Of a DNA stretch of 64,000 bases, positions 7,254 through 58,554 are shown piece after piece. Under the pieces are notes generated by a model. That model was not told the DNA's origin. It did not search any database and was given only the letters and a program-made list of their open reading frames with translations. Positions within the stretch are counted from its first letter, which is position 1. Every line of letters starts with the position of its first letter. The translations under genes were made by a program, and so were the position numbers. The DNA lies in contig JAJPHC010000030.1 in NCBI GenBank assembly GCA_021325515.1, positions 142,976 through 206,975 of the forward strand, written 5' to 3'. Source of the stretch: Acidobacteriota bacterium (GTDB lineage: Bacteria > Acidobacteriota > Thermoanaerobaculia > Gp7-AA8).

Positions 7254-7413
7254 GACAATAGGACCTATGGGACCTATGGGACCTATGGGTGGAGGCCGTT
7301 CTCCACTGTAGGTACATAGGATGGGAGACAGGACCTATGGGGAGAACGGCCTCCACCTATAGGTCCCATAGGTCCCATAGGTCCCATACTCCCATACTCC
7401 CATCCTCCCATCC
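7244..7413. repeat. Long 3' palindrome built of 9-base units (GGGACCTAT)
   Basis: Left arm 7261-7304 and right arm 7341-7384 are reverse complements over 44 bases with one G-U-type difference; the loop is 36 nt. Each arm contains three to four GGGACCTAT/ATAGGTCCC units followed by the unique GGAGGCCGTTCTCC. Further degenerate units extend outward (GATAGGAC on the left; ACTCCCAT, CCTCCCAT on the right). The stop codon TAG of the propeller gene (7251-7253) is read from a repeat unit, and the stop of the convergent GDSL gene follows at 7416. A bidirectional terminator is the simplest role. Confidence 0.85.
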
Positions 7414-10775: not shown

Positions 10776-10879
10776 TGGATGGGATGGGACTATGGGACCT
10801 ATAGGACCTATGGGACCTATAGGTAGCCGCCCATAGGTCCCATAGGTCCTATAGGTCCCATAGTCCCATCCCATCCATC
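10774..10879. repeat. 50-bp-arm 3' palindrome built of 9-base units
   Basis: Left arm 10774-10823 and right arm 10830-10879 match as reverse complements at 49 of 50 positions, with a loop of only six bases (TAGCCG). The arms are tandem GGGACCTAT-type units bounded by GATGGATGGGATGG. The arm begins on the second base of the TGA stop of the SH3 lipoprotein. Such a stem would be extruded readily as a cruciform or would fold in RNA as a near-perfect 50-bp hairpin. It lies between two same-strand genes. Confidence 0.9.
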
Positions 10880-10914
10880 CATCCAAACCCTCGCCTCCCT
10901 CGTAATCCTTCTCG

Positions 10915-28773: not shown

Positions 28774-28855
28774 TGATGGGACGGATGGGACGTATGGGAC
28801 GGATGGGACCGATGGGACGGATGGGTAGCTATCCGTCTTATCCTTCCATCATTCC
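28774..28855. repeat. 3' tandem 9-mers (GATGGGACG) with short inverse arm
   Basis: Five and a half GATGGGACG units (28774-28825) start directly after TGA 28771-28773. The right arm (28831-28843, ATCCGTCTTATCC) pairs only with the last one or two units, allowing G-U pairs, then runs into the stop of the convergent ZIP gene (TCA 28849-28851). The right side appears eroded because it is next to coding sequence. Same unit family as the palindrome at 30.9 kb. Confidence 0.75.
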
Positions 28856-29568
28856 AATATGGCTACGATTCCGCCTGCGGTCACCAAGCCGGCGAGAGTG
28901 AACATCATCAGGGTCAGCTTTGGCCGTTGATGCACTCGCTGCAGCAGATCGCTGGCGCCGAGGTAGAGAAGGAAGCCGGCAAAGAAGGCGAGCTGGAAGG
29001 CCACCATCCGGGGCGTGATGTTCACTACGTTGGACAGCAGTGCGCCGGCAACCGGCGCCAGCGCGTCGATTCCTAGGAGTGTGGCGGTGCGCGGGAGATT
29101 GTTGTCGGACGCCAGCATGAAGGTGACGGTGTTCAAGCCGTCGGCGAAATCGTGCGCGACGACGGCGAGGAGCACGATCAGCCCGATCTGCGGCGAGGCC
29201 TTGAAGCCGACGCCGATGGCCAGGCCGTCTAGAAAACTGTGAAACGAAAGCCCTAAGGCGCCGACGAGTCCGACATTGTGCTGGTGCCCCGGCTCATCGT
29301 GCGCCTTCTCACTGTGGATGATCGTCGCCTTCTCCAGCAGGAAGATGCCCGCGAATCCCGCGATGAGGGTGATCATCAGCGCGCGGATGTCGATCGCCTC
29401 GCGATGCGCGAGCTCGACGACTTCCGGGATCAGATCGAGGAACGCGACGCCGATCAGCAGACCGGCGGAGAACGCCATGATGAACAGGAGGTACCGGCGA
29501 TACCGAAGCGCGAACGCGCCGCCGGCCAGGGTCATCAGAAATGCCGACAGAGCGTAGACCGCACTCAT
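28849..29568 (-). CDS. ZIP-family metal transporter
   Basis: 239 residues with about eight membrane helices. The ZIP metal-binding helices are recognisable: HSFLDGLAIGVGF (helix IV) and HDFADGLNTV (helix V, His/Asp ligands). A histidine-bearing loop (HSEKAHDEPGHQH) between helices III and IV is the variable metal-gathering loop of the family. Function: uptake of divalent cations such as Zn2+ across the inner membrane. It follows a receiver-domain gene by 12 bp on the same strand, so the two are probably co-transcribed. Confidence 0.88.
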   Translation of the reverse strand: MSAVYALSAFLMTLAGGAFALRYRRYLLFIMAFSAGLLIGVAFLDLIPEVVELAHREAIDIRALMITLIAGFAGIFLLEKATIIHSEKAHDEPGHQHNVGLVGALGLSFHSFLDGLAIGVGFKASPQIGLIVLLAVVAHDFADGLNTVTFMLASDNNLPRTATLLGIDALAPVAGALLSNVVNITPRMVAFQLAFFAGFLLYLGASDLLQRVHQRPKLTLMMFTLAGLVTAGGIVAILE

Positions 29569-29580
29569 GCGGCGCGTAGT

Positions 29581-29955
29581 CTACGGCAACTTGCTCCACA
29601 ACTCGTCGAGATCGAACGGCTTGCGGACCAGGCCGGAGAGCCGCGACGTATCGACGCGGTCGACGATCGACTGCGACGCACCGGTCATCACGACCACCCG
29701 CCCGAGCAGCGCCGGGCTCTCGCGCTCCAGACGCTCGAGCAATTCGAAACCGTTGACGTCCGGCATCATGAGGTCGAGCAGGATGACGGAGTACGATCCG
29801 CGCCGCAGATATTCGAACGCCGCGCGCCCGTTCGGCGCGGAGTCGACCGCGTATCCGCGGCGCGCGAGCAGGGTGTGAAAGAGGCCCTGCAGCGCCGGAT
29901 CGTCGTCGACGACGAGCGCACTGAAATGGCGGCCGGGAGGATCGACCCGAGACAC
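29581..29955 (-). CDS. Single-domain response regulator
   Basis: A 124-residue receiver domain only. Acidic pocket VVDDDP, phospho-acceptor Asp in LLDLMMPDVNG, Thr in VVMTGAS and Lys in VRKPFD. There is no output domain, as in CheY- or DivK-like proteins. GTG start at 29955. It is a relative of the receiver protein at 31028 (shared LDLMMPxVxG and RKPFDxDxL). It is co-oriented with ZIP (downstream) and a 56-residue hypothetical protein (upstream). No kinase is adjacent; the nearest is the hybrid kinase at 40.7 kb. Confidence 0.9.
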   Translation of the reverse strand: MSRVDPPGRHFSALVVDDDPALQGLFHTLLARRGYAVDSAPNGRAAFEYLRRGSYSVILLDLMMPDVNGFELLERLERESPALLGRVVVMTGASQSIVDRVDTSRLSGLVRKPFDLDELWSKLP

Positions 29956-30215: not shown

Positions 30216-30926
30216 ATGCGTCGAATGAACATGAAGAGCAAATTACAGGCCACGCTGCTGGCATTATGTCTAACCATCCCCTGCTTCGCCGACGATCTCA
30301 TCAATGCCGATCGCCCCGGCATCGCCGACGGCAGCACGACGGTCGATGCCGGCAAGTTGCAGGTGGAGCTCGGACTGGAGCGGGATACGGGCAACGGCCC
30401 GTCGTCGACCACGACTCCACTGCTCATTCGCTACGGAATCACGAAAGCGATCGAGGCGCGCATCGAGACCGGCGGCTTCACCCGCTCCGCGGGCGACAGC
30501 GGCCTCTCGCCGGTTTCCGCCGGCCTGAAGATTCACTTCCTCGATCGTCCGTCGCTGGGGCTGATCGCGCGGGTCTTTCCACACTCCGGCAGCGGCACGT
30601 TCAAGTCATCGAAGACGACCGCCGATCTGCGTCTCGCAGCCGACCGCGATCTGTCGGAGAAGTGGTCGATCGAAGGCAACATCGGCGTGGAGCACGGCGA
30701 TCAAAACTCCGGCCTGCTCGCGGCAACGCTTCAATACAACATCTCGCCGGCGATCAACGTGTTCGTCGACGGCGGAGCAACGACGAATCCGTCCTCCCTG
30801 CTGCTGGACGCGGGAACGGCGTGGATCATCGGCAAAGACCTGCAGCTCGACTTCTCAGCAGGATTCGGCGCGCATGGGGATGTGCCGGATCGGTTCGTGG
30901 CAATGGGAGTGAGCAGAAGATTTTGA
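30216..30926 (+). CDS. Outer-membrane beta-barrel protein (phenol-degradation MetA/PF13557-like)
   Basis: 236 residues with a signal peptide (LQATLLALCLTIPCFA). After the mature start ADDLINADRPGIADG, alternating beta strands end in the terminal aromatic Phe (GVSRRF) typical of BAM substrates. The N-terminal DRPGxADG motif is common in the transporter family annotated as MetA-pathway-of-phenol-degradation or in related putative porins. Three in-frame ATGs exist (30216, 30225, 30231); 30216 has GGAG 13 bases upstream. Its stop TGA is the first codon of a 46-bp palindrome shared with the convergent receiver gene. Confidence 0.75.
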   Translation: MRRMNMKSKLQATLLALCLTIPCFADDLINADRPGIADGSTTVDAGKLQVELGLERDTGNGPSSTTTPLLIRYGITKAIEARIETGGFTRSAGDSGLSPVSAGLKIHFLDRPSLGLIARVFPHSGSGTFKSSKTTADLRLAADRDLSEKWSIEGNIGVEHGDQNSGLLAATLQYNISPAINVFVDGGATTNPSSLLLDAGTAWIIGKDLQLDFSAGFGAHGDVPDRFVAMGVSRRF

Positions 30927-31026
30927 TGGATGGGAGTTATGGGACGGATGAGACGGATAGGACGGATGGGGAGAACGAGTCCCATCCGTCCTATCCGTCC
31001 CATCCGTCCCATACGTCCCATCCATC
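30925..31026. repeat. 46-bp-arm 3' palindrome built of 9-base units (GGGACGGAT)
   Basis: Left arm 30925-30970 and right arm 30981-31026 match at 43 of 46 positions with a 10-base loop (GAGAACGAGT). Units are GGGACGGAT and variants. On the plus strand the arm opens with TGA-TGGATGGGA at the barrel gene's stop. On the minus strand it opens TGA-TGATGGATGGGA at the receiver gene's stop, so the two sides are anchored symmetrically on two stop codons. Confidence 0.9.
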
Positions 31027-31027
31027 A

Positions 31028-31432
31028 TCACTCGCGCTGAAACTTCAGTAAGTTCCCCTTGGCCTCCGCGCTTCGCGACTCCGCCGCGGCCATGATCAGG
31101 TCGGACAGCACGTCGATATCGAACGGCTTGCGGATCACGGAATGGACGATCGAGCCGTCGACCTTGCGCAACGCGGCCGTGTCCGCCGCACTGACGAGGA
31201 TGATCGCGGGATGTTCTCCCGCCATGTCGCGCACGTGATCGATGACGCCGTAGCCGTCGACGTTCGGCATCATCAGATCGAGAATCACGACCTGATACGG
31301 GTTCTCGTCGAGCTTTGCAATCGCCTCGGCACCGTCCCTTGCGACATCCGCATGGAATCCCGCCCGCTGCACGATGCGCGCAACGAGAGCGCGGATCGCC
31401 GGCTCGTCATCGGCCACTAAGACACGAATCAC
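31028..31432 (-). CDS. Single-domain response regulator, divergent from the PQQ operon
   Basis: 134 residues, receiver domain only. Acidic pocket VADDEP, acceptor Asp in ILDLMMPNVDG, Ser in LVSAAD (where Thr/Ser is expected) and Lys in IRKPFD. GTG start at 31432. It shares a 76-bp divergent promoter region with the quinoprotein dehydrogenase operon, a position that would suit control of that operon by protein-protein contact; it has no DNA-binding domain. A relative lies at 29581. Confidence 0.9.
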   Translation of the reverse strand: MIRVLVADDEPAIRALVARIVQRAGFHADVARDGAEAIAKLDENPYQVVILDLMMPNVDGYGVIDHVRDMAGEHPAIILVSAADTAALRKVDGSIVHSVIRKPFDIDVLSDLIMAAAESRSAEAKGNLLKFQRE

Positions 31433-31508: not shown

Positions 31509-33365
31509 ATGCACACCGGCGGTCTCGTGCGTCGTCTCAGTGCATGTCTCGCCGCGCTCCTCATCCTCTTCAACTGCCGCAAGGCCGAGCCGGTGCGGCG
31601 CAGTTCCTTCCCATTTCTCGAGCGCTTCCACACCGCGCCTGACGTCCGGACCGATCTGACCTCCATCCAGCAGGACGACGGCCAGTGGATCATGCCGGCA
31701 AAGAACTACGCGTCGACGCGCTACAGCGGCCTCGATCAGATCAATGCCGCGAATGCGAAGAACCTGCGCGTCGCCTGGACGTTCTCGATGGGCAGCGTCA
31801 GAGGCGAAGAAGCCGCGCCGCTCGTCGTGAACAACACGATGTATGTCGTGTCGCCCTTCCCCAATCATCTCTACGCTCTCGATCTGACGAAGCCGGGCGC
31901 GCCGCTCAAGTGGGACTTCGAGCCGAAGAACATGCAGAGCGCGGCAAAGGGCGTCGCCTGCTGCGACTGGGTGACTCGCGGCGCCGCGTATGCGAACGGG
32001 AAGATCTTCTTCAATGTCCTCGATGGGCGGACCGTCGCCGTCGATGCGGCAACCGGCGGCCAGGTGTGGGAAACGCAGCTCGCTGACATCAGCCGCGGCG
32101 AGTCGCTCACCATGGCTCCCCTCGTCGTCAGGAACAAGGTCCTCGTCGGCAACAGCGGCGGCGAGTTCGGCGTACGCGGTTGGCTCACCGCACTGGATAC
32201 AGAATCCGGCAAGATCGTCTGGCGCGCGTATTCGACAGGACCCGACAAGGACGTCCTCATCGGACCGAATTTCAAGCCTTTCTATGCACAGGATCGCGGC
32301 GCCGACCTCGGCGTCAAGACCTGGCCGCCCGATCAATGGAAGATCGGCGGCGGCACGGTCTGGGGCTGGATCTCTTATGACCCCGAGCTCGATCTCATCT
32401 ATTACGGGACGGCCAATCCCGGCGCATGGAATCCTGAACAACGTCCCGGCGACAACAAGTGGACCTGCGGCATCTTCGCGCGCAAACCCGATACAGGTGA
32501 GGCGATCTGGTTCTATCAATGGTCGCCGCACGATCTCTATGACCATGACGGCATCAATGAGCAGATCCTGCTCGATCTGCCGATCCAGGGCCGGCAGCGA
32601 AAAGTGCTCGTCCGTCCCGAGCGCAATGGCTATGTCTACGTGCTCGATCGCACGACGGGCGAAGTTCTCTCGGCAACGCCCTATGGCTACATCACGACGT
32701 CGAAGGGTGTCGATCTCAAGACCGGGCGGTTGATTCCCGTTGCGGAGAAGGCGCCCGGCTTCGGCCGCGTGACGCGCGAGATCTGTCCTCCCTCGCCCGG
32801 AATGAAGGACTGGGAGCCGTCCGCATATTCGCCGCAGACAGGATTGCTCTACATCCCGCACGCGAATCTCTGTCAGGACACCGAAGGGGTTCAGGCGAAT
32901 TACATCGCCGGCACTCCTTATGTCGGCGCCAACGTGAAGATGTATGCGGGGCCCGGCGGCTATCGCGGCGTGTTCGATGCCTGGGATCCGATCGCGGCGA
33001 AGAAGATCTGGTCGATTCGCGAATTGTTTCCCGTCTGGAGCGGTGCGCTAGTCACCGCGGGCAATGTCGTCTTCTATGGAACGATGGACGGCTGGTTCAA
33101 GGCCGTGCATGCGAAGACCGGCGAGCTCTTATGGCAGTTCAAGACAGGCTCCGGAATCATCGGACAGCCGATCACATACCGCGGTCCTGACGGCCGGCAG
33201 TACGTCTCGATTCTCTCCGGCGTCGGCGGCTGGCCGGGCGCCATCGTCTCCGGCGATCTCGATCCGCGCGACGGCACCGCTGCGACGGGATTCGTCAATG
33301 CCATGAGCGACCTGGCGAAGTACACGACCAAGGGGGGCGAGCTCTACACGTTCGCATTGCCATGA
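31509..33365 (+). CDS. PQQ-dependent alcohol dehydrogenase (lipoprotein form)
   Basis: 618 residues. Start 31509 gives a lipoprotein-like signal ending LILFNC. Quinoprotein features: the vicinal disulfide cysteines in ACCDWVTRGAAY, HDLYDHDGINEQ (active-site Asp region), and propeller tryptophan-docking repeats such as GYVYVLDRTTGEVL and DGWFKAVHAKTGELLWQFK. Family role: periplasmic oxidation of alcohols with PQQ and Ca2+ or lanthanide, electrons passing to cytochrome c. It lacks a fused cytochrome domain, so it is the methanol/ethanol dehydrogenase type. It is the first gene of the operon running to 40672. Genes for PQQ synthesis are not in this window. Confidence 0.9.
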   Translation: MHTGGLVRRLSACLAALLILFNCRKAEPVRRSSFPFLERFHTAPDVRTDLTSIQQDDGQWIMPAKNYASTRYSGLDQINAANAKNLRVAWTFSMGSVRGEEAAPLVVNNTMYVVSPFPNHLYALDLTKPGAPLKWDFEPKNMQSAAKGVACCDWVTRGAAYANGKIFFNVLDGRTVAVDAATGGQVWETQLADISRGESLTMAPLVVRNKVLVGNSGGEFGVRGWLTALDTESGKIVWRAYSTGPDKDVLIGPNFKPFYAQDRGADLGVKTWPPDQWKIGGGTVWGWISYDPELDLIYYGTANPGAWNPEQRPGDNKWTCGIFARKPDTGEAIWFYQWSPHDLYDHDGINEQILLDLPIQGRQRKVLVRPERNGYVYVLDRTTGEVLSATPYGYITTSKGVDLKTGRLIPVAEKAPGFGRVTREICPPSPGMKDWEPSAYSPQTGLLYIPHANLCQDTEGVQANYIAGTPYVGANVKMYAGPGGYRGVFDAWDPIAAKKIWSIRELFPVWSGALVTAGNVVFYGTMDGWFKAVHAKTGELLWQFKTGSGIIGQPITYRGPDGRQYVSILSGVGGWPGAIVSGDLDPRDGTAATGFVNAMSDLAKYTTKGGELYTFALP

Positions 33366-34150
33366 GACTGGCAGCAGGCTCCACACTGGCGGCAATCCTT
33401 CTTGTTGCGTGTGCGCGGCAGTCTGTCCCCGTCGTTCAGCGTCCTCCTCTTCGCGTCTGTGCGGATCCGAACAACATGCCCTTCTCGAACATGCAGCAGC
33501 AGGGGTTCGAGAACCGCATTGCGGAACTGATCGCGAAGGATTGGAACCGCCCCGTTCAATACACGTGGTTTCCGCAGCGCCGCGGCTTTGCGCGGATGAC
33601 CCTCAAGCAGAACGAGTGCGACGTGATCATCGGCGTTCCTTCCAATTACGAGCTCGCGGCGACGACGCAGCCCTATTACAGGTCGAGCTACGTTTTCGTC
33701 ACGCGCCGCGACCGCCACATGGAGCTCCGGTCATTGGACGATCCCCGCCTGCATCACTTCAGGATCGGCGTGCAGATCATCGGCAACGATCACGTCAATG
33801 CTCCGCCGGCGCATGCACTCGCAAAGCGCGGGATCATCGACAACGTCATCGGGTATCCCGTCTACGACCCGCACAACAACATCGTCGATGCGGTGGCACG
33901 CGGCGACGTCGATGTCGCGGTCGTGTGGGGACCCCAGGCCGCATGGTCGGCGAAATCACAGCGGGTCGCGCTCGATCTCGTTCCCGTATCGCCGCAGATC
34001 GATCTCCCCTTCCTCCCCTTCGTCTTCGACATCTCCATGGGCGTTCGCCGCGGCGACACCGCATTGAAAGAGAAGCTGGACGAGGAGATCGCTCGACGCC
34101 GGCCGGACATCGAAAAAATCCTCGATGACTACGGAGTGCCTCGTGTCTAG
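33362..34150 (+). CDS. MxaJ/XoxJ-like substrate-binding protein
   Basis: A 262-residue exported protein, Cys-anchored (AAILLVACARQ). Its periplasmic-binding fold begins LRVCADPNNMPFSN and contains NECDVIIGVPSNYELAATT and DVDVAVVWGPQAAW. These match the quinoprotein-dehydrogenase-associated binding proteins (MxaJ type, TIGR03871). In methylotrophs MxaJ/XoxJ is needed for assembly or activity of the dehydrogenase rather than for transport. It overlaps the dehydrogenase stop by 4 bases (ATGA). Confidence 0.88.
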   Translation: MRLAAGSTLAAILLVACARQSVPVVQRPPLRVCADPNNMPFSNMQQQGFENRIAELIAKDWNRPVQYTWFPQRRGFARMTLKQNECDVIIGVPSNYELAATTQPYYRSSYVFVTRRDRHMELRSLDDPRLHHFRIGVQIIGNDHVNAPPAHALAKRGIIDNVIGYPVYDPHNNIVDAVARGDVDVAVVWGPQAAWSAKSQRVALDLVPVSPQIDLPFLPFVFDISMGVRRGDTALKEKLDEEIARRRPDIEKILDDYGVPRV

Positions 34151-34649
34151 ACAACAGGTCCTGCTATCTGTCGCCTGCTGCCTGCTGCCTCTGTTCGGCT
34201 GCCGCCGGGAAATCCGCGAGCTCAATCCGCCGATCTCATCGGCATCACGCCCGCTCCCTGTGCGCGTCTCCACCTTGCAGCCCGGACCCACAATGGGTGC
34301 GCCGGCCGCCTTGAACAATCCTTATGAGGGAAACGCTTACGCGATCAGCAAAGGCCAGCAGCTCTTCGAGCAGTACAACTGCTCCGGCTGTCATGCCCAC
34401 GGCGGCGGCGGTATTGGACCTCCACTGATGGACGACAAGTGGATCTACGGCAGCTCGCCGGCGCAGATCTACCTCACCATTACAGAGGGACGGCCGAACG
34501 GGATGCCTTCCTTCGGCGGTCATATACCGGCCGAACAGGTGTGGCAGCTCGTCTCTTATGTCCGCTCACTGTCCGGCCTCGAGCCGGCGGCGACGGTCTC
34601 TCCCCGCTCCGACGAGATGCAGGCCAGAAGGGCCGAGGAGAAGAAGTGA
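34143..34649 (+). CDS. Cytochrome c lipoprotein, dehydrogenase electron acceptor candidate
   Basis: 168 residues, single haem site CSGCH in SKGQQLFEQYNCSGCHAHGG, axial Met probably in NGMPSFGGHI. GTG 34143 is preferred over ATG 34125 because of GGAG just upstream; it overlaps the previous gene by 8 bases. The signal peptide (LLSVACCLLPLFGC) is encoded by CCTGCTG heptamers (34174-34194). Position between the dehydrogenase and the oxidase suggests it carries electrons from PQQ to cytochrome oxidase. Confidence 0.85.
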   Translation: MSRQQVLLSVACCLLPLFGCRREIRELNPPISSASRPLPVRVSTLQPGPTMGAPAALNNPYEGNAYAISKGQQLFEQYNCSGCHAHGGGGIGPPLMDDKWIYGSSPAQIYLTITEGRPNGMPSFGGHIPAEQVWQLVSYVRSLSGLEPAATVSPRSDEMQARRAEEKK

Positions 34650-35602
34650 ACGGGTTCCAGTCGGCGATGCATCCCGCCGGAGTGCAGGCGAGCGAGCTTC
34701 ATCATCTCTGGAACATCTTCCTCTGCGTGTCGATCGTGGTCTATGGAATCACTCTGGCGGCGGTGCTCATCGCCGTCCGCCGTTCGCACAGAAGAACAGA
34801 ACCGCTCGCTGATGCTCCGAGTGAGCGCCGCGCAACGATCGCGGTGGCGATCGGCGCCGGCATGACGTTCGTGACCGTCCTCGCGCTTCTCGTCGCCAGC
34901 GTCGCCACGGGACGTACAGTGGGCACGCTCGGGCGGCTCGGAACGGCGCATCTCGAGATCGACGTCACCGGGCATCAGTGGTGGTGGGAAGTCACTTATC
35001 CGAACTCCGAGCCCGACAAGTCGATCAGGACCGCCAATGAGATTCACATACCGGTCGGAAAGCCGGTCGAGCTACGGCTGGCGACGCGCGACGTCATCCA
35101 CAGTCTCTGGATCCCGAACCTGCACGGAAAGCGCGACCTCATTCCCGGCCGCGTCAACAAGTTCTGGATCGAGGCGGATCGCCCCGGCGTCTATCGCGGC
35201 CAGTGCGCGGAGTTCTGCGGACTGCAGCATGCGAACATGGCGCTCACCGTGATCGCGGAGTCCCAGGACGCCTACGATCGATGGCTGGAGCACCAACGCA
35301 CCGCTGCACCTGAGCCGGTCACGGACGCACAGAGGCGCGGGCGTCAGGCGTTCCTGTCGCTCCCCTGCGTCAATTGTCACGCAATCACGGGAATCGATGC
35401 CTATGCCACCGCCGGTCCGGACCTGACGCACATCGCCAGCCGTTCCACGCTGGCCGCCGGAACGCTCATCAACAACAAGGGAAGTCTCAGCGGATGGGTC
35501 GTCAATCCACAGGCGCTCAAGCCGGGCTCGAACATGCCGGCCAATGAGATGACACCGCAGCAGCTCAATGACCTCGTCGCGTATCTCGAGAGCCTTCAAT
35601 GA
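34646..35602 (+). CDS. coxB: Cytochrome c oxidase subunit II with fused cytochrome c (caa3 type)
   Basis: 318 residues. Two N-terminal membrane helices, GHQWWWEVTYP, then the CuA ligands (IHSLWIP; GQCAEFCGLQHANM). A C-terminal cytochrome c domain follows with CVNCH and axial Met in GSNMPANEM. CuA plus fused haem c defines a caa3-type oxidase that accepts electrons directly from soluble or tethered cytochrome c. The start is GTG 34646, overlapping the previous stop as GTGA. Confidence 0.95.
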   Translation: MNGFQSAMHPAGVQASELHHLWNIFLCVSIVVYGITLAAVLIAVRRSHRRTEPLADAPSERRATIAVAIGAGMTFVTVLALLVASVATGRTVGTLGRLGTAHLEIDVTGHQWWWEVTYPNSEPDKSIRTANEIHIPVGKPVELRLATRDVIHSLWIPNLHGKRDLIPGRVNKFWIEADRPGVYRGQCAEFCGLQHANMALTVIAESQDAYDRWLEHQRTAAPEPVTDAQRRGRQAFLSLPCVNCHAITGIDAYATAGPDLTHIASRSTLAAGTLINNKGSLSGWVVNPQALKPGSNMPANEMTPQQLNDLVAYLESLQ

Positions 35603-37503
35603 CCGATTACGCCATCGATGAACGGGAGCTCGACGCCACATGGTCCCCGGGCAGGGGGATCATCGGATGGCTGAGCGAAACCGGTCACAAGGAAATCGGC
35701 ATGCGCTACATCGTCACGGCGATGTGCTTCTTCGCGCTGGCCGGAATCGAAGCGGCCCTGATCCGCCTCCAGCTTTCACGTCCCGACAATACTATCCTCG
35801 GCCCCGACGCCTACAACCAGATCTTCACCATGCATGGCACCACCATGATGTTTCTCTTCGCGGTGCCTGTCATGGAAGGGATGGGCATCTACCTGGTGCC
35901 GCTCATGGTTGGGACCCGCAATGTCGCGTTCCCGCGCCTGAACGCATTCGGCTACTACATGTATCTGTTCGGCGGGATTTTCATCTACACCATGTTCGCC
36001 CTCGGCGCAGGCGCCGACGCCGGATGGTTCGCCTATGTGCCGTTGTCGGGCCCTATGTTCGCGCCCGGCAAGCGCGTCGACACCTGGGCCAACATGATCA
36101 CTTTTACGGAAGTGTCGGCGCTGGTCGTCGCGGTGGAGATTTCGGTTACGGCGTTCAAGCAGCGCGCGCCCGGAATGTCGCTCAATCGCATCCCGCTGTT
36201 CGTCTGGGCCATGATCGTCACGTCGTTCATGATTCTCTTCGCAATGCCGGCCGTCATGCTCGACACCGGCTTTCTGGCGCTGGACCGGCTCGTCGCCACC
36301 CAATTCTTCAATCAGTCCGAAGGAGGCGATGCGCTCCTCTATCAGCATCTGTTCTGGTTCTTCGGACATCCCGAGGTCTACATCATCTTCATTCCGGCCC
36401 TGGGATTCATTTCGGCAATCATCACGACCTTCACTGGAAGAAAGCCCTTCGGTTATCCGGTGATGGTCTCGTCGCTTGTCTTTACGGGATTCATGGCGTT
36501 CGGCCTGTGGGTCCATCACATGTTCGCGACCGGATTGCCGCAGCTCGGCCAGAGTTTCTTTACGGCGGCGAGCATGATGATCACCATCCCCACGGGCGTG
36601 CAGATCTTCTGCTGGATCGCCTCGATCTCGCTCGGCAGGCTGGTGATCCGCACGCCCGTCCTGTATGTGATCGGATTCTTCGCCGTATTCATCATCGGCG
36701 GCCTGTCCGGTGTGATGGTCGCGTCGGTACCGCTCGACTTTCAATTGCACGACACGTTCTTCGTGGTCGCACATCTGCACTATGTATTGATCGGCGGCGC
36801 TCTGTTTCCGCTCTTCGGAGCATTTCACTACTGGTTCCCCAAATGGACAGGCCGCATGTACTCGGAGCGCATGGGGCAGTGGGCGTTCTGGCTCCTACTG
36901 ATCGGATTCAACCTCACCTTCTTCCCGATGCACATCCTTGGGCTCAATGGCATGCCGCGACGGATCTATACGTACGGGCCGCACATGGGCTGGACGACGC
37001 TCAATCAGGTGGCGTCGGGTGGCGCAGTCTTCATCGTTCTGTCGGTCGTCTGCATGCTGGCCAACTTCGCGATCAGCCGCCGCCGCGGTGCGCTCGCGGG
37101 AAGCAATCCGTGGAACGCCGATTCGCTCGAGTGGGCAACGTCGTCGCCGCCACCGTCGTACAACTTTCTCCACCTGCCCGTCGTCGCCGGTCCGAATCCG
37201 ATCTGGGATGCGGAGCCGGACCCGCCGGTCGTCGTCGGAATGGCAACCGGCCATCGCGAAGTCCTCATCACGAAAACGCTCGACGCCGAAGTCGATCACC
37301 GCGAAGAGATTCCCGGACACTCCCTCGGCCCCTTCTATCTCGCAATTGCGGCGACGATCGCATTGTGGGGCGCGATCTTTTTTGCGTGGTGGTTCACGAT
37401 CGGACTCTGCCTGAGCGGCATTGTGCTGATCTTCTGGTTCTGGCCGGCGCGGGAACAGGTCGAAGTGGACATGCTGCGCGAGCGCGAGGAGGCGACTCCA
37501 TGA
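35599..37503 (+). CDS. coxA: Cytochrome c oxidase subunit I
   Basis: 634 residues, about twelve helices plus a C-terminal extension (after about 500) with one or two more. Haem a ligand region TMHGTTMMFLF, CuB ligands HPEVY and WVHHMF, and haem a3/a His pair in VVAHLHYV. A-type haem-copper oxidase, reducing O2 to water and pumping protons. ATG overlaps the subunit II stop by 4 bases. Confidence 0.97.
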   Translation: MTDYAIDERELDATWSPGRGIIGWLSETGHKEIGMRYIVTAMCFFALAGIEAALIRLQLSRPDNTILGPDAYNQIFTMHGTTMMFLFAVPVMEGMGIYLVPLMVGTRNVAFPRLNAFGYYMYLFGGIFIYTMFALGAGADAGWFAYVPLSGPMFAPGKRVDTWANMITFTEVSALVVAVEISVTAFKQRAPGMSLNRIPLFVWAMIVTSFMILFAMPAVMLDTGFLALDRLVATQFFNQSEGGDALLYQHLFWFFGHPEVYIIFIPALGFISAIITTFTGRKPFGYPVMVSSLVFTGFMAFGLWVHHMFATGLPQLGQSFFTAASMMITIPTGVQIFCWIASISLGRLVIRTPVLYVIGFFAVFIIGGLSGVMVASVPLDFQLHDTFFVVAHLHYVLIGGALFPLFGAFHYWFPKWTGRMYSERMGQWAFWLLLIGFNLTFFPMHILGLNGMPRRIYTYGPHMGWTTLNQVASGGAVFIVLSVVCMLANFAISRRRGALAGSNPWNADSLEWATSSPPPSYNFLHLPVVAGPNPIWDAEPDPPVVVGMATGHREVLITKTLDAEVDHREEIPGHSLGPFYLAIAATIALWGAIFFAWWFTIGLCLSGIVLIFWFWPAREQVEVDMLREREEATP

Positions 37504-38114
37504 GCACGCGCGTCCTGGATGTATCCGGGCTTCCGACGTCGGCCGCGGACAGCCGCGCGCTCCTCTGGTGGGGCAACATCGGCATGCTGGCCATCGAAGG
37601 CGCCATGTTCGCGATGCTGTTCGGCACCTGGCTCTATCTGAAGACCGCCAATCTCGACTGGCCGCCACAGAGCGCACAGCTTCCTCCGCTCCTCTGGCCG
37701 TCCATAGGACTCGGACTGCTGCTCATCAGCGGTGTGCTCATGTATGCATTTGCGGATCGCGGCGCGATGAAGGACGACGTCGTCGCCATCCGCATCGGCC
37801 ACGTGCTCTGCAGTCTCATCGCAATCGCGTTTCTCATCATTCGCTGGAAGAACATCGCGGAGCTCGGATTCAAGTGGAGCGATCATGCGTACGGCTCGGT
37901 CGTATGGACATCGATCGGCATGCATACGCTACACGTTCTCACTGCGACGGGCGAGGTACTCGTGCTGTTGGCCTATGAGAGTCTGCGGCCTGTCGCGAAA
38001 AAGCAGCTTCTCGACATTCGCTGCACCGCTGTCTACTGGTACTTCGTCGCCGTGACGTGGATTCCCTTCTATCTGCTGATCTACGTCGCGCCGTACTACG
38101 TGCGAAAGGGATGA
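37500..38114 (+). CDS. coxC: Cytochrome c oxidase subunit III
   Basis: 204 residues, five membrane helices, with the family signature GMHTLHVLTATGEV and the terminal YWYFVAVTWIPFYLLIYV. The start ATG 37500 overlaps the subunit I stop. Shorter than the seven-helix mitochondrial form, as is usual for bacterial caa3 enzymes. Confidence 0.92.
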   Translation: MSTRVLDVSGLPTSAADSRALLWWGNIGMLAIEGAMFAMLFGTWLYLKTANLDWPPQSAQLPPLLWPSIGLGLLLISGVLMYAFADRGAMKDDVVAIRIGHVLCSLIAIAFLIIRWKNIAELGFKWSDHAYGSVVWTSIGMHTLHVLTATGEVLVLLAYESLRPVAKKQLLDIRCTAVYWYFVAVTWIPFYLLIYVAPYYVRKG

Positions 38115-38455
38115 CGATGGCAGAAGCCACCAGGGACATCGACATCCGTTCCAGCTCTGTTGCGCTCTGGTACGGCAATCTGGCGCCGCCGATCGCCTGG
38201 GCCGCCGCGCTGCAGCTTCGCTATGCCCTCGTGCACTGGGCGTGTGCGAGCGGCGCTCGGTGGACTCTCACCGCGTGCGCGGCTCCGCTGTTCGTGCTGG
38301 CTCTGTCGGGTGCATTCATCGGTTGGCGCTATAAGAACGATTCGGCGGCGCGAATCCGTTTCATGGCGACAGGCGCGCTTGCACTCGGCCTCATCTTCGC
38401 ATTGACGATCGCCGCCGGAACGATTCCCGATCTCTTTCTGTCACCATGCGACTGA
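38111..38455 (+). CDS. Small three-helix membrane protein of the oxidase operon
   Basis: 114 residues. Helices at about 20-40 (LAPPIAWAAALQLRYALVHW), 50-68 (ACAAPLFVLALSGAFIGW) and 80-100 (FMATGALALGLIFALTIAA). ATG 38111 overlaps the subunit III stop (ATGA). It sits where subunit IV genes often lie and is probably an accessory oxidase subunit; the sequence itself is not diagnostic. Confidence 0.7.
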   Translation: MTMAEATRDIDIRSSSVALWYGNLAPPIAWAAALQLRYALVHWACASGARWTLTACAAPLFVLALSGAFIGWRYKNDSAARIRFMATGALALGLIFALTIAAGTIPDLFLSPCD

Positions 38456-39348
38456 CTTCCCTCTTTCTGCTCGCGCACGCCGGCTCGCATCACCTCGAGC
38501 CTGACGAAGTACTGCACTGGTGGTCCTGGGAGCCGGCCGTCGTCGTGCTGCTTGCACTGACCGCGATTCTCTATTTTGGCGGGCTCGCACGGCTCTGGAT
38601 GACGGCGAAGACCGGGCGCGGCGTCGGAAGACTGGAAGCCGTCGCCTTCGCCGCCGGCTGGCTCGCACTCGTCATTGCACTCGTCTCCCCGGTCGATGCT
38701 CTCGGCGGAGTCCTCTTTTCCGCGCACATGGTGCAGCACGAGCTGCTGATGCTGGTCGCCGCGCCGCTCCTCGTGCTGGGACGGCCTCTCATTGCAATGC
38801 TCTGGCTGCTGCCGCAGTCGTGGCGACGGCCCGCCGCACAATGGACGCAGCGGCCGGCAGTGCATGCGGCATGGACTGCGATGACCGCGCCGTTGCCCGC
38901 AACGGTGCTGCACGGCCTCGCATTGTGGGTGTGGCATCTGCCAGCGCTGTATCAGGCAACCCTGCATCATGAATTCATCCATGCGCTGCAGCACACCTCG
39001 TTCATTGTGACCGCGGCGCTCTTCTGGACGGCGCTGATCCACGGGCGCTTCGGCCGTATGACTTATGGCGCCGGCGTGGCGTACGTCTTCATCACAGGAA
39101 TTCACAGCGGCGTACTCGGCGCACTGCTGACTTTTGCTCCGTCGCTTGTGTATCCGATCTATGGACCCATTACGCGCGCGTGGGGCCTCGATCCACTCGA
39201 AGACCAGCAGCTCGCGGGGCTGATCATGTGGGTCCCCGCAGGAATCATCCTCGTCATTCTCGGCCTCGCGCTGTTTGCGGCATGGCTTGCCGAGGCGGAA
39301 CGGCGGGTCGCGTTCACGAAGAGCGCGGCATTGACGGAGCGGAAATGA
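38446..39348 (+). CDS. ctaG: Cytochrome c oxidase assembly factor CtaG (caa3 type)
   Basis: A 300-residue polytopic protein. HMVQHELLMLVAAPLLVLG, LWVWHLPALYQATLHHEF and QHTSFIVTAALFW are the His-rich helices of the caa3_CtaG family, needed for CuB insertion in this class of oxidase. It overlaps the previous gene by 10 bases and the next by 4. This homology differs from the Cox11-type CtaG of proteobacteria. Confidence 0.9.
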   Translation: MRLTSLFLLAHAGSHHLEPDEVLHWWSWEPAVVVLLALTAILYFGGLARLWMTAKTGRGVGRLEAVAFAAGWLALVIALVSPVDALGGVLFSAHMVQHELLMLVAAPLLVLGRPLIAMLWLLPQSWRRPAAQWTQRPAVHAAWTAMTAPLPATVLHGLALWVWHLPALYQATLHHEFIHALQHTSFIVTAALFWTALIHGRFGRMTYGAGVAYVFITGIHSGVLGALLTFAPSLVYPIYGPITRAWGLDPLEDQQLAGLIMWVPAGIILVILGLALFAAWLAEAERRVAFTKSAALTERK

Positions 39349-39725
39349 CCGTCACGCAACAGAGAGTCCGCCTTTTGTGGTTTCCTCTGGCCTGTTGTCT
39401 CTTGTCTGTTGCCTGTCACCGGGAAGACAGGACAACGACCGGCGGCGGCAACAGCGAGCGCGGAAGACAGCTCGTCGCGCAATACGCGTGTACGGCCTGT
39501 CACGACATTCCGGGCGTCAGGGGACCGAAGGGCATGGTCGGTCCGCCGTTGTCCGGCATGGGCGGCCGGAGCATGATCGCCGGGAAGATTCCGAACACGC
39601 CGCAGAATCTCGAGCGGTGGATTGAGAATCCGCAGGCACTCGATCCCAACAATGCGATGCCGAATCTGAACGTCACGCCAAAAGACGCGCAGGACATCGC
39701 GGCATTCCTCTACACCCTGCGATGA
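39345..39725 (+). CDS. Cytochrome c lipoprotein, small
   Basis: 126 residues, haem site CTACH in QLVAQYACTACHDIPGVRG, axial Met in NAMPNL. ATG 39345 overlaps the ctaG stop. The signal peptide (PLACCLLSVAC) is written in heptamers CCTGTTG, TCTCTTG, TCTGTTG, CCTGTCA (39391-39418). A second soluble or tethered electron carrier of the operon. Confidence 0.88.
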   Translation: MTVTQQRVRLLWFPLACCLLSVACHREDRTTTGGGNSERGRQLVAQYACTACHDIPGVRGPKGMVGPPLSGMGGRSMIAGKIPNTPQNLERWIENPQALDPNNAMPNLNVTPKDAQDIAAFLYTLR

Positions 39726-40672
39726 AGCGCTTCGCCTACGCCGCCTCCTGCCTGCTGTCTGCCGTCTGCTGCCTGGCCGGCGAGCGGGTCTTCGTGACGA
39801 ACGAGCGCGCAGGGACGGTCTCCGTGATCGAGAACGATCGCGTCGTCGCGACCTTTCATGCGGGCGCTCGGCCGCGCGGCATCGTGCTGAGCCCCGATCA
39901 CAAGAAGCTCCTTGTCGCCTCATCGCACATGAAGAACACGATTACGAAGGACCGCGACTCGGTGCGCGTGTTCGATGCCGAGACGCTGAAGGAGATCAGG
40001 CGCTTCGACTGCGGTACCGATCCCGAAGGGATTGCGGTGACAGGCGATGGCCGAATGGCCATTGTGTCGAACGAAGATGCCGGAACTGCGACGATCATCG
40101 ACACGGCGAGCGGGAAGAGTGTCTCCGTCGTCACGGGAACAGAGCCGGAAGGAGTCGCGGTCCATGGAACGACCGCGCTGGTGACGGGCGAGACGAGCAG
40201 CACCATCACGAAAATCGATCTGGCGAAGAAGCGGGTCGAAGCGAATTTCTTCGTCGACGCGAGGCCGCGCGCAGTCACCTTCACGCGCAATGGAGCGCGC
40301 GCCTACGCGAGCGCGGAAGTCGCGGGAACGATCAACGTCATCGACGTGATGAACGGGAGCGTGCAGGCGAAGATCAGGCTGGGGCCGCGCGATCATCCCG
40401 TCGGTGTCGCGCTGTCGAAAGACGAGCGGCAGCTCTATGCCGCCACGGGCCGTGGCAACAGCGTGGCGGTCATCGACACGAAGACGAATCGCGTTACCGC
40501 GACGATTCCTGTGGGCCAGCGGCCGTGGGGCCTGGGGCTTTCAGGAGATGGGAAGCGGCTGTACGTCGCGAACGGACTGTCGAACGACGTGTCGGTCATC
40601 GATACCACCGCCCTGCGCGTCGTCGCGACGATCAGGACCGGCGACGGGCCGTGGGGAATCGCAATTCGATGA
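39722..40672 (+). CDS. YVTN-type beta-propeller, PQQ-catabolism-associated (TIGR03866-like)
   Basis: A 316-residue secreted seven-bladed propeller. YVTN-like units recur: VFVTNERAGTVSVIE, GIAVTGDGRMAIVSNED, QLYAATGRGNSVAVIDTKT, RLYVANGLSNDVSVIDT. Its position at the end of a quinoprotein operon is the context of the family described as PQQ-dependent-catabolism-associated propellers. The signal peptide (ASCLLSAVCCLAG) is encoded by NCTGCTG heptamers. It overlaps the previous stop by 4 bases. Function in the pathway is unproven. Confidence 0.85.
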   Translation: MKRFAYAASCLLSAVCCLAGERVFVTNERAGTVSVIENDRVVATFHAGARPRGIVLSPDHKKLLVASSHMKNTITKDRDSVRVFDAETLKEIRRFDCGTDPEGIAVTGDGRMAIVSNEDAGTATIIDTASGKSVSVVTGTEPEGVAVHGTTALVTGETSSTITKIDLAKKRVEANFFVDARPRAVTFTRNGARAYASAEVAGTINVIDVMNGSVQAKIRLGPRDHPVGVALSKDERQLYAATGRGNSVAVIDTKTNRVTATIPVGQRPWGLGLSGDGKRLYVANGLSNDVSVIDTTALRVVATIRTGDGPWGIAIR

Positions 40673-40691: not shown

Positions 40692-42575
40692 TCAACGCTC
40701 CCCCGCCGACAGCAGCGGCAGCAGGACTTCGGGCTCGACTGGTTTCACCAGGTGCTGATCGAAGAGTGACGGATCCTCGAGGGTGCCGTAGCCGGTTAGA
40801 GCGATCACCGACGCCCGGGCCGTCTCGGGACGCGCCCGCAGCTCGCGGGCGACGGCGTAGCCGTCGATTCCCGGCAGTCCAACATCCAGCAGCACCACCT
40901 CGGGCCGGAATTCCTTCGCGACGAGGAGCGCTTCGTGTCCGTCGGCCGCGGCACGCACGAGATGTCCTTCACGCTCGATGAGGAGAGTCAGCATCGTCCG
41001 CGCGTCGGAGTGATCTTCCACGACCAGCACGCGTTTCGCGGCCGTGGGGATGGCCGGGCGAAGCTCCTTCGCGCTGCTCGTGCTCACCGCCGCCGCAGCA
41101 GCGATCGGAACGCGCACTGTGAACGTCGTGCCCTTCCCCGCTCCTTCGCTCGTCACGCTCACGGTTCCGCCGTGCAGCTCAACCAGGCGCTGCACCAGAG
41201 TCAGTCCCAGCCCGAGCCCGCCGCGCGGACGGTCGATCGGCGGAGGCCCCTGCACGAACAGCTCGAACACGTGCGCCTGCAGGTCGGGAGCGATGCCCTC
41301 CCCCGTATCCGAGACTTCCAGCAGCAGAACGCCGTGGCTGATTGCGGCGGTAATCCGGACTTCGCCGCCGGGCGGCGTGAACTTGATCGCGTTGTGGAGG
41401 AGATTGGCGACGACCTGGGTGAATCGCGCCGCATCGGCATCGAGCCATACCCGCTCCGCGGTCAGACTAACCGAGAGCTGCACCTCCTTCTGTGCGGCGA
41501 GGTGGCGCCAGGTCTCGATGGCCGGAGCGACCACATCTTCCAGAAGCACGCGGCGGCGCTCGACGTGAATCACGCCGCGTGTAATGCGTGAGACGTCCAG
41601 CAGATCGCCGACCAGCCGTGCAAGATGCGCGGCCTGGCGGCGGATGGTCTCAACCGCGGGATTTCTCCCATCCAGCAGCTCGGCGGCATTGACGATCGGC
41701 GCGAGCGGGTTGCGCAGCTCGTGTCCGAGCATCGCCAGGAATTCGTCCTTGCGCTCCTGCGCCTCGCGGTTTTGTTCCGACACAGCGCCGAGGACCAGCC
41801 CGGTTGCCGCGACCACGGAGGTGAAAAGCTGGAGCGCCACCAGGCCCGCTTCGGGACCCGTTCCTGCGAACGGGCCACGGCCGAGATGCGTCCCAAAAAC
41901 GGCGATGGCATTGGTGATGACTGCGATCAGCGCGGAACCGCGCGGGCCGAATCGAAGCGCCGCCCAGATGACGCATGGAAAGACGACGTACTCCGTCGTC
42001 GGCACATGCAGCCATCCAAGAAAGACCGTCGCGGAGAGCACCATGATCAGAGCCGTGCCGATCACACCCTCCGCATCGGCCATGCGGCGGCGCCTCGCCG
42101 GTGTGCTGCTGTTCCAGACGAGGAGCAGCGGCGCGACGATCACGGCGCCGAGTGCGTCGCCCGTCCACCAGAGCGCCCAGAGTGCGGGCGCCGCAGCCGC
42201 CGGCTGGACCGCGCCCGCGATCAGCGAAGCGACGCCGATCGTCGCGCTGATGATCGGGCTGACGATCGCCGCGCCGACCAGCAGCAGCACGTCGCGAACG
42301 CGAGCGATGCGCGAATCGAACTCGAGGTGCTGCAGGAGCGAGGCCGCGAAAAGCGCCTCCAGCGTGTTGCCTGCTGCGATGCCGGCAGCCGTCCAGAACG
42401 GCTCACCCGACGTTGCATTCGCTACGAGCGCCCCGAGAAAGACTCCGGCGGCATTGCGCTTCCCGAGCAGCAGGAGCGCGGCGATCGCGAATCCGGTCGG
42501 CGGCCAGACGGCCGTCACCTGATGTGCGCGAATCCCGAGTGCCAGCCCGAGCTTCGCAAAGGCGACGTAAAGCAC
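40692..42575 (-). CDS. MASE1-type hybrid sensor histidine kinase
   Basis: 627 residues from GTG 42575. MASE1-like membrane sensor (1 to about 265; [19 protein letters not shown]), HisKA with H-box [12 protein letters not shown], and HATPase with [25 protein letters not shown] and [12 protein letters not shown]-terminal receiver (Asp in [12 protein letters not shown], Lys in LVKPVEP) follows. The frame stays open about 75 bases upstream without ATG, GTG or TTG (only CTG), and GTG 42575 starts inside what should be helix I, so the N-terminus may be slightly short or use a rare start. It converges with the PQQ operon, 19 bp apart. Confidence 0.85.
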
Positions 42576-43257: not shown

Positions 43258-43536
43258 ATGGGTAAGGTGACGAGTAAGTATCAGGTCAGCCTCCCGAAAG
43301 CCCTCGCGGACCGGCTGGGCATCGCCCCCGGGGACGAAGTGGACTGGCGTATCGCAGGGACCGAGCTTCGGGTGACGCCTGCCGCCGCGCGAGCCCGCCT
43401 GTCGGCCGAGGAGCGCCTCGAGCTGTTCGATGCCGCCACGCGCAGGCAATCGGCGCGCAACAGGACGCAGCGCGGGACCGGGGAAAGCCGCGGCTGGACC
43501 CGCGAGGATCTCTACGATCGTGGCCGCACTCGTTGA
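43258..43536 (+). CDS. vapB: AbrB/SpoVT-type antitoxin
   Basis: 92 residues. The N-terminal swapped-hairpin DNA-binding domain is MGKVTSKYQVSLPKALADRLGIAPGDEVDWRIA in pattern (residues 1-33), followed by a basic linker and a toxin-binding tail (GESRGWTREDLYDRG). Antitoxins of this type repress their own operon and block the PIN toxin. The next gene overlaps by 17 bases. Confidence 0.88.
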   Translation: MGKVTSKYQVSLPKALADRLGIAPGDEVDWRIAGTELRVTPAAARARLSAEERLELFDAATRRQSARNRTQRGTGESRGWTREDLYDRGRTR

Positions 43537-43948
43537 CACCAGCGTCCTCGTCTACCGGTACGACGGGCGCGACCGGCACAAACAACGCGTGGCCACCGAG
43601 TTGTTGCGCCAGGGGATTGCCCGCGACTCCATCCGAATCGCCTACCAGTCGCTCGTCGAATTCTATTCGGCCGTGACGCGTCCCATTCGCGGCGCACGCC
43701 CTCTCCTCGATCCGGCCACGGCGACTCGCGAAGTCGAAGAACTGCTGGTGCAGTTCGACATCATCTTTCCGACGGAAGAAGTCATTCACGCCGCATTGCG
43801 CGCGACAGCGGCATATCAGCTTTCGTGGTTCGACGCGCAGATGTGGGCCTATGCCGAGACCAGCGGCCTCACGGAGATCCTCTCAGAGGACTTTCAACAT
43901 GGCCGGCTGTATGGCCGCGTGCGCGTCGTCGATCCGTTCCGCGAGTAG
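43520..43948 (+). CDS. vapC: PIN-domain ribonuclease toxin
   Basis: 142 residues from GTG 43520. PIN acidic residues: ALVDTSVLVYRYD (Asp6), a middle Glu in YQSLVEFYSAVTR, and a C-terminal Asp pair region LSWFDAQMWAYAETSG ending TEILSEDFQHG. VapC toxins cleave tRNA or rRNA. Overlap with the antitoxin gene (17 bases, different frame) supports one operon. It converges with the HD-GYP gene 8 bp later. Confidence 0.88.
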   Translation: MAALVDTSVLVYRYDGRDRHKQRVATELLRQGIARDSIRIAYQSLVEFYSAVTRPIRGARPLLDPATATREVEELLVQFDIIFPTEEVIHAALRATAAYQLSWFDAQMWAYAETSGLTEILSEDFQHGRLYGRVRVVDPFRE

Positions 43949-57509: not shown

Positions 57510-58391
57510 GTGAATCTTCTCCTCCTCGAGCGCACACTCGCTGCACGAGCTCCGGAGGGGCGCGCGTGCGTGCCGGTCATCGGGGCCGGCGTCAACATTC
57601 AGGCGGCGCTGCAGGATGGTGCGCGCAACACGAATGACTGGGACGGCCTGCTGAATCGCGTGAGCGAGGAAGTGGGCATCGACGGTCCGTTGCCGCCGAC
57701 TCCTCTTGCGAAATGGGAGACGCTGCTTCGCCGCTGGTCCCTGCACAAGCGCGTCGAGCCGTTCAAGGCGGAAGAACAGTTGCAGGCGTTCGTCTGCCGC
57801 GAGTTGCGCGCGCATGAAACGACGACGGCGCGCTACAGCCTGTACGGCGAATTCCTCGATGCCGGTTTCCGCGACATCATCTCGTTGAACTTCGACCGGC
57901 AGATCGCCCTGCATCGAACGAACGAGCGATTCATCGCGCCGCGGCGCCGCGACCTCCTCTACAGGCACAGCATCGCCGGCGCGACACGCATCTGGTATCC
58001 GCATGGCGACACGCGGAAGTCAGCGACGCTCAAGCTCGGCGTCCGCAAGTACGGGATGCTGATCGGAACACTCGAGCGCGAACGGACGCGGATCATGGCC
58101 GCGACGAGGTCGAGAGGACGCGACACCTCCCGCGCGCACTGGCTCGATCTCATCCTCCTCGGCGCGCCGCTGGTGTTCATCGGCTGCGGACTCGCCGCCG
58201 ACGAGTGGCCGCTCTGGTGGCTCCTGCATCAGCGCGCGCGAAACTGCGGGCACTCGGCAGAGACTTGGATGCTGTCGACGAAAGGCAGCACCGCGCCGCA
58301 CCTCGCCGGCTCCCCCTCCGGAGTCCACGTCGTCGAGTTCGACTCCCACGCAAAACTCTGGCAATTCGTACGCACCGCCCTCTCCCGTTAA
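57510..58391 (+). CDS. SIR2-like domain protein (SIR2_2 type)
   Basis: 293 residues from GTG 57510. SIR2-like NAD-fold motifs: ACVPVIGAGVNIQAAL, IISLNFDRQI (Asn-x-Asp), WYPHGD (His) and LVFIGCGLAADEW. Zinc cysteines of true sirtuins are absent. Proteins of this domain act as NAD hydrolases in several anti-phage systems, but stand-alone copies also occur and no defence partner is present here. The Arg-rich TARYSLYGEFLDAGFRD region is typical of SIR2_2. The stop TAA is inside the first R palindrome. Confidence 0.7.
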   Translation: MNLLLLERTLAARAPEGRACVPVIGAGVNIQAALQDGARNTNDWDGLLNRVSEEVGIDGPLPPTPLAKWETLLRRWSLHKRVEPFKAEEQLQAFVCRELRAHETTTARYSLYGEFLDAGFRDIISLNFDRQIALHRTNERFIAPRRRDLLYRHSIAGATRIWYPHGDTRKSATLKLGVRKYGMLIGTLERERTRIMAATRSRGRDTSRAHWLDLILLGAPLVFIGCGLAADEWPLWWLLHQRARNCGHSAETWMLSTKGSTAPHLAGSPSGVHVVEFDSHAKLWQFVRTALSR

Positions 58392-58481
58392 GTTGGTTCC
58401 TGGGGGTCACACCTGGAAAATCAACTTAACGCGGCGCGTTAAGTTGATTTTCCAGGTGTGACCCCCGAAAACCAACTTAAC
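58387..58481. repeat. REP-like palindrome R, inverted pair
   Basis: Two 44-base copies in opposite orientation (58387-58430 and 58438-58481), separated by GCGGCGC. Each has outer arms GTTAAGTTGR / YCAACTTAAC and a core GGGGGTCACACCTGG. The second copy is the exact inverse of the form at 16.6 kb; the first has TTCCT in place of TTTTC. The SIR2-like stop TAA (58389-58391) is in the outer arm. The whole unit is itself a 95-base palindrome. Confidence 0.88.
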
Positions 58482-58554
58482 GTCACGGGGACGTGTGATG
58501 GGGGTCAACGCTGCGTTGCTGCCTTCAGGCCCACTGTGGGGTCAGGAGGAAGCC

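Follow-up and report, generated by a model that had tools for sequence, protein, structure and literature searches.

Here, we analysed a 64,000-nucleotide stretch of DNA from an Acidobacteriota bacterium (contig JAJPHC010000030.1; "the window" below) and studied the ten-gene operon at its positions 31509 to 40672. With a probability of about 85%, we read this operon as an xoxF3-type cluster, that is, a periplasmic methanol (or short-alcohol) dehydrogenase dependent on lanthanides and pyrroloquinoline quinone (PQQ) that comes with its own chain to O2. The operon is real, well conserved, and already described; what most deserves specialist attention is the family-wide loss of canonical proton-channel residues in its oxidase. 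From sequence and gene content we infer the substrate, the use of lanthanides, the electron path, co-transcription, and the scavenging of PQQ. A rare-earth alcohol dehydrogenase joined to an oxidase of its own offers a compact system in which to study what soil bacteria do with lanthanides and with methanol from plants.

The operon and its conservation

All ten open reading frames lie on the plus strand and each of the nine junctions overlaps, by 4, 8, 4, 4, 4, 4, 10, 4, and 4 bases in gene order, which bears out the tight same-strand array that a first-pass annotation of this DNA had described (Table 1). For the third gene, an alternative ATG at 34125 would give an overlap of 26 bases instead of 8, and the start of xoxF is uncertain because the ATG at 31509 has no clear ribosome-binding site. 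Pfam and NCBIfam models back every named product except the small membrane protein, which has no family matches.

The dehydrogenase scores 640.9 bits against TIGR03075 (cut-off 480) and is the sole PF01011 protein found in the source genome (5.38 Mb, 99.8% complete). Its top PDB match is the XoxF structure 4mae (E 5e-211), whereas the ethanol dehydrogenase 6zcv matches far less well (E 7e-102). In the alignment with 4mae, its LYDHDGINE lies over SWDYDGVNE, so that the lanthanide Asp-x-Asp pair is present; the vicinal Cys-Cys is visible as well, together with the conserved Glu and Asn regions. The earlier description of a PQQ dehydrogenase with an MxaJ-like factor therefore stands for the enzyme, which is of the lanthanide type, but has to be changed for its partner: this protein passes the XoxJ model TIGR03871 (288.9 bits, cut-off 212), stays below the cut-off of the MoxJ model TIGR03870, and finds XoxJ (6onp, E 3.9e-46) as its top PDB match. 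The third gene encodes a monoheme cytochrome c beside xoxF and reaches 41 bits with TIGR03872 (MoxG, the cytochrome cL equivalog), below the cut-off. CoxB (TIGR02866, 164.9 bits, cut-off 147.7) aligns with 2yev_B, the corresponding subunit of Thermus caa3, from end to end (residues 9-317), cytochrome domain included, and carries both CAEFCGLQHANM and the heme motif CVNCH, the combination of CuA and C-terminal cytochrome c that marks the caa3 type.

On this basis, XoxF would oxidise a periplasmic alcohol with imported PQQ and lanthanide, after activation or loading that is probably the task of XoxJ. Electrons would pass from XoxF to the operon's small cytochromes c, enter CoxB by way of its heme c and CuA, and end at the heme/CuB site of CoxA, where O2 would be reduced to water. 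Assembly of the oxidase would be aided by CtaG and, probably, by the small cysteine protein with its three helices. The position of the latter between coxC and ctaG, together with its two cysteines, suggests an assembly factor or accessory subunit: among 45 aligned homologues, Pro27, Cys45, and Cys113 are near-invariant, and an AlphaFold2 model gives a three-helix bundle (predicted local distance difference test score 92). No Pfam or NCBIfam family matches more than 3 of the 45 members, and a PDB search returned no sequence match and no significant fold match; we therefore rejected its identification as COX4 or CtaF. The first-pass annotation had called the operon self-contained, and alcohol oxidation, electron transfer, and O2 reduction are indeed encoded by adjoining genes, with PQQ synthesis missing, but the operon has no genes for making heme A, for maturing cytochrome c, or for CuA insertion. 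The genome has other A-type oxidases, one of them on contig C4, where coxA and coxC stand beside 4Fe-4S (Fer4) and multiheme cytochrome genes in a neighbourhood that looks to be of the Alternative Complex III kind, and another on contig C50; the operon may thus act beside them as a dedicated outlet for electrons from alcohols oxidised in the periplasm.

This gene set is not confined to the window. When 84,980 species were scanned, 80 loci emerged, spread over Acidobacteriota, Gemmatimonadota, Verrucomicrobiota, Proteobacteria, and Myxococcota; strains of Methylobacterium, Massilia, and Sphingomonas are among the carriers. At 52 loci, the sequence runs on for 9.5 kb or more from the start of xoxF; coxB, coxA, coxC, and ctaG follow on the same strand downstream of xoxF in 46 of these, xoxJ is found in 44, the second cytochrome in 50, and the propeller in 8. 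Across 297 evenly drawn Acidobacteriota genomes, a close CoxA occurs in 9, a close XoxF in 11, and both in 8 (Fisher p ~1e-12), and where both occur the genes are usually less than 5 kb apart. The genes and their order are conserved well in excess of chance. The overlaps are not: matched junctions in relatives range from about -23 to +391 bases, the unbroken overlaps being peculiar to the source genome, and we rejected them as a conserved regulatory signature. Two related operons (L161 in genome G017 and L162 in G016) are headed by two tandem xoxF genes, with 63-65% and 73% identity to that of the window, and in both relatives the second cytochrome is present twice as well.

The same counts bear on whether the oxidase cluster serves as an accessory oxidase of general use and stands beside xoxF by chance. 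Two genomes would fit that view, namely, Acidobacteriota genome G196, which has cytochrome c-coxBAC-ctaG without xoxF, and Phenylobacterium (L070), which has xoxF, the propeller, and xoxJ but no cox genes. Yet XoxF is present in nearly all of the CoxA-bearing Acidobacteriota genomes, and the adjacency of xoxF and cox recurs across several phyla, so that we consider a chance association very improbable.

Proton-channel residues of the oxidase

We counted channel residues in 66 non-identical xoxF-linked CoxA sequences, numbered against E. coli CyoB, with 12 CoxA paralogues from the same searches as a comparison set. The six histidine ligands of heme and CuB, Tyr288, Glu286, and Arg481/482 are kept in all 66. 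The K-channel lysine (CyoB K362), on the other hand, is glutamine in 66/66, and the D-channel entry position (CyoB D135) is asparagine in 48, serine in 9, and aspartate in only 3, with other residues in the remainder; the CoxA of the window has Asn108 and Gln335 at these two places. Paralogues retain the lysine in 11/12 cases and the aspartate in 12/12. Further along the D channel, N124 is replaced by valine, isoleucine, or leucine and T201 by alanine or glycine, N142 is kept, and the N207 position is mostly glutamate (37/66) or valine (12). Misalignment of CoxA is an unlikely cause, because these positions sit in ungapped conserved motifs (AFPRLN and IPxGVQIF). The Glu-x-x-Trp motif of subunit II, at the K-path entry, is likewise missing from the xoxF-linked CoxB segments and present in most housekeeping paralogues (near Glu89, the CyoA/CoxB alignment is out of register by a few columns, and the motif was compared by eye on extracted segments). 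At the same time, the xoxF-linked CoxA family has gained invariant charged residues, Arg36 near the D-channel mouth and Glu171 in helix 4, the latter aligning with Gly198 of CyoB and being absent from the paralogues.

The xoxF-linked oxidase is thus without the canonical D- and K-channel residues by which A-type enzymes are defined in the published classification (PMC3084760). In the Paracoccus numbering of that scheme, the equivalents of Asp124, Asn113, Asn199, and Ser193 of the type A1 D channel are replaced, those of Glu278 and Asn131 are present, and the Lys354 of the type A K channel has the glutamine noted above. The same survey lists 4 channel-less oxidases among 1,216, all of them B-like, although how strictly it scored single residues is not clear. 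The CoxA of the XoxF-free genome G196 shows the same pattern (Thr, Glu, and Gln), and the trait therefore belongs to the oxidase subfamily. In the literature that we searched, with partial journal coverage, no paper ties XoxF-associated oxidases to channel loss, which does not prove novelty. Departures from the canonical residues are also seen in other oxidases of these genomes: in a Gemmatimonadales metagenome-assembled genome, an xoxF3 operon is accompanied by a second cox cluster (L104:235-2139), whose CoxA has tryptophan at E286 and alanine at K362, and the third A-type CoxA of the source genome (L127, L159; G000 contig C50:75890-77503) has isoleucine in place of the K-channel lysine, with the D-channel aspartate and Glu286 kept.

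An oxidase without these residues would take in protons along a different route, and its pumping may be weak or absent. We tentatively extend this to a cross-phylum subfamily lacking the canonical D and K paths, with an alternative proton route, possibly from the periplasm as in nitric oxide reductase, and with little or no energy conserved; alcohol oxidation would then be a fast outlet for electrons, with loose coupling, and run for the most part by PQQ scavengers. As a whole, this proposal is somewhat more apt to prove wrong than right. An ordinary proton-pumping A-type oxidase, in which the D path is re-routed via other acids (for example, Glu171 and Glu180, the latter at the N207 position) and the K path is lysine-free as in the B type, has a chance only a little short of even. 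The conservation of Glu286, Tyr288, and all ligands agrees with a working pump, as do the invariance of Glu171 in this family, the frequent glutamate at the N207 position, and the existence of lysine-free K-like paths in B and C types (PMC3084760), and Glu171 and Glu180 could form a re-routed path. Such a path, however, has to contend with a Glu180 that is not conserved (the valine of the N207 position), with a D-channel mouth of asparagine or serine next to the invariant Arg36, and with the loss of the subunit II entry motif as well. If all linked oxidases work without D and K channels, the rule used to classify A-type oxidases would be broken, and nature would have performed an experiment on whether these channels serve turnover, pumping, or both.

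PQQ supply, substrate, and neighbouring genes

PQQ synthesis had been named as the one step missing from the operon, and it does not turn up elsewhere in the genome: models for PqqB, PqqC, and PqqE gave nothing above cut-off in the source genome or in 17 family relatives. PQQ is therefore not recognisably made and probably scavenged from outside, which would add a dependence on neighbours or on soil PQQ. The PqqC model works in Acidobacteriota, since it scores above cut-off in one Acidobacteriaceae, one of the 4/25 operon-bearing genomes with PqqC above cut-off. For comparison, PQQ synthesis is reported for 16/38 XoxF genomes in PMC10875860, and PqqU importers for many non-producers, among Acidobacteria only Vicinamibacteria (PMC12124388); E. 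coli PqqU as a probe found generic TonB-receptor similarity, at best 42 bits in the source genome. Two kinds of apparent PQQ genes were rejected, the PqqE matches, which are generic radical-SAM proteins found in 14/14 control genomes too, and a PqqC-like protein of the CADD family (TIGR04305, 258.5 bits). The gene for this look-alike (L151:8526-9167, G000 contig C19) adjoins aconitase, is also found in related genomes, and could mislead annotation.

Several points weigh against an xoxF3-type alcohol dehydrogenase cluster fed by imported PQQ. A divergent PQQ pathway or assembly gaps may lie behind the missing PqqB, PqqC, and PqqE, and the oxidase cluster of G196 implies that the tie between this oxidase and alcohol oxidation is not strict. 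The xoxF3 assignment comes from operon anatomy and identity to Acidobacteriota sequences and is provisional; XoxF3 enzymes themselves, according to PMC10875860, are without biochemical data. Finally, no Fae homologue was found in the source genome or in any of 18 family genomes. The lack of a Fae-type formaldehyde pathway would suit a main substrate other than methanol (ethanol, an aldehyde, or a glycol), the operon then being a general alcohol outlet and not part of methylotrophy. ExaF-type enzymes, which use PQQ and lanthanides, do act on multicarbon alcohols. Against this, the closest solved relatives are XoxF methanol dehydrogenases, by the wide E-value gap to 6zcv given above, and we regard a non-methanol main substrate as unlikely.

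The genes on both sides of the operon encode a ZIP transporter, response regulators, and a MASE1 kinase (Table 1), which might possibly serve its metal supply and regulation. A sigma-70 promoter scan found promoter-like sites only at chance level, and terminator-like sites (14 against 7.7 expected) were uninformative for the operon. The hairpin scan found no long hairpin within the operon, as first noted, but this tells little on whether hairpins elsewhere are terminators, as had been argued from it. One near-perfect hairpin (30924-31027; 47-nucleotide arms, 94% complementary, 10-nucleotide loop, with GGGACGGAT-like units) sits exactly between convergent genes at 30216-30926 (plus strand) and 31028-31432 (minus strand), and further long hairpins occur in the window at 7240-7405, 10771-10882, and 58373-58495. 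At 43258-43948, a MazE-like antitoxin gene is followed by an overlapping gene for a PIN-domain toxin-like protein.

Table 1. Genes of the operon and of its flanks, in window positions
Feature	Position	Strand	Family or structure match
ZIP-family metal transporter	28849-29568		
Single-domain response regulator	29581-29955		
Single-domain response regulator, upstream flank of operon	31028-31432	-	
xoxF: PQQ- and probably lanthanide-dependent methanol/alcohol dehydrogenase, 618 aa	31509-33365	+	TIGR03075; PDB 4mae
xoxJ: periplasmic-binding-protein-like XoxF partner, lipobox-like N-terminus	33362-34150	+	TIGR03871; PDB 6onp
Cytochrome c in XoxG position, one CSGCH heme site	34143-34649 (GTG start)	+	Cytochrome_CBB3 58.9 bits
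coxB: oxidase subunit II, CuA and fused C-terminal cytochrome c (caa3 form)	34646-35602 (GTG start)	+	TIGR02866
coxA: oxidase subunit I, 634 aa, C-terminal extension	35599-37503	+	TIGR02891 671.5 bits (cut-off 670.75)
coxC: oxidase subunit III	37500-38114	+	PF00510 54.6 bits (cut-off 23.8)
Small membrane protein, 114 aa, three helices, between coxC and ctaG	38111-38455	+	no family
ctaG: Caa3_CtaG copper assembly factor	38446-39348	+	PF09678 193.1 bits (cut-off 27.7)
Second cytochrome c, CTACH, lipobox-like N-terminus	39345-39725	+	PF00034 43.2 bits
YVTN/YncE-like beta-propeller	39722-40672	+	beta_rpt_yvtn 176 bits; TIGR03866 257.7 bits (below cut-off 287.3)
MASE1 hybrid histidine kinase-response regulator, convergent to operon	40692-42575		

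Comparison with known systems

The linkage of these genes with a dedicated caa3 oxidase had been put forward as possibly new. This claim is refuted, because both the xoxF3 clusters (PMC10875860) and the COX operon type a-II (PMC4013037) were already published. Voutsinos et al. 2024 (PMC10875860) described xoxF3 clusters of Acidobacteria and Gemmatimonadetes with these parts, and an earlier review cited there had noted that a few xoxF3 operons contain cox and ctaG. The window holds the corresponding set, namely, the lanthanide aspartate of XoxF, XoxJ, a cytochrome c, CoxI, CoxII, CoxIII, a protein of about 110 amino acids, and CtaG; PQQ biosynthesis, which is not recognisable in the host of the window, is also absent from many hosts of the described clusters. 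Differences from that work are that the window operon has no NRAMP or TonB gene inside and overlaps at all its junctions, and that the small protein, likened there to vesicle-transport proteins by AlphaFold, gave us a model without a significant PDB match. Proton channels of the oxidase are not discussed in the passages of that paper that we read.

Degli Esposti 2014 (PMC4013037) defined a COX operon type a-II that often includes a PQQ dehydrogenase related to MxaF, and whose COX1 has 630-670 amino acids and a COX4-like extension at the C terminus (A1 subtype a in PMC6431628). The CoxA of the window agrees in length, has a predicted hydrophobic helix at 593-611, and lies downstream of xoxF. 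Type a-II is described for proteobacteria, and the passages of PMC4013037 that we read do not mention channel loss.

With Thermus caa3 (2yev) and Bacillus ctaCDEFG, the operon has in common a subunit II that carries CuA and a fused cytochrome c, the CtaG family, and a small membrane protein between subunit III and CtaG. It differs from them in its separate subunits I and III, in the missing K-channel lysine and D-channel aspartate, and in that its small protein matches no COX4 family. The solved XoxF methanol dehydrogenases (4mae, 6oc5, and 7o6z) are alike in sequence family, in the Asp-x-Asp metal motif, and in the Cys-Cys pair; they belong to other clades, whereas the xoxF of the window heads an oxidase operon.

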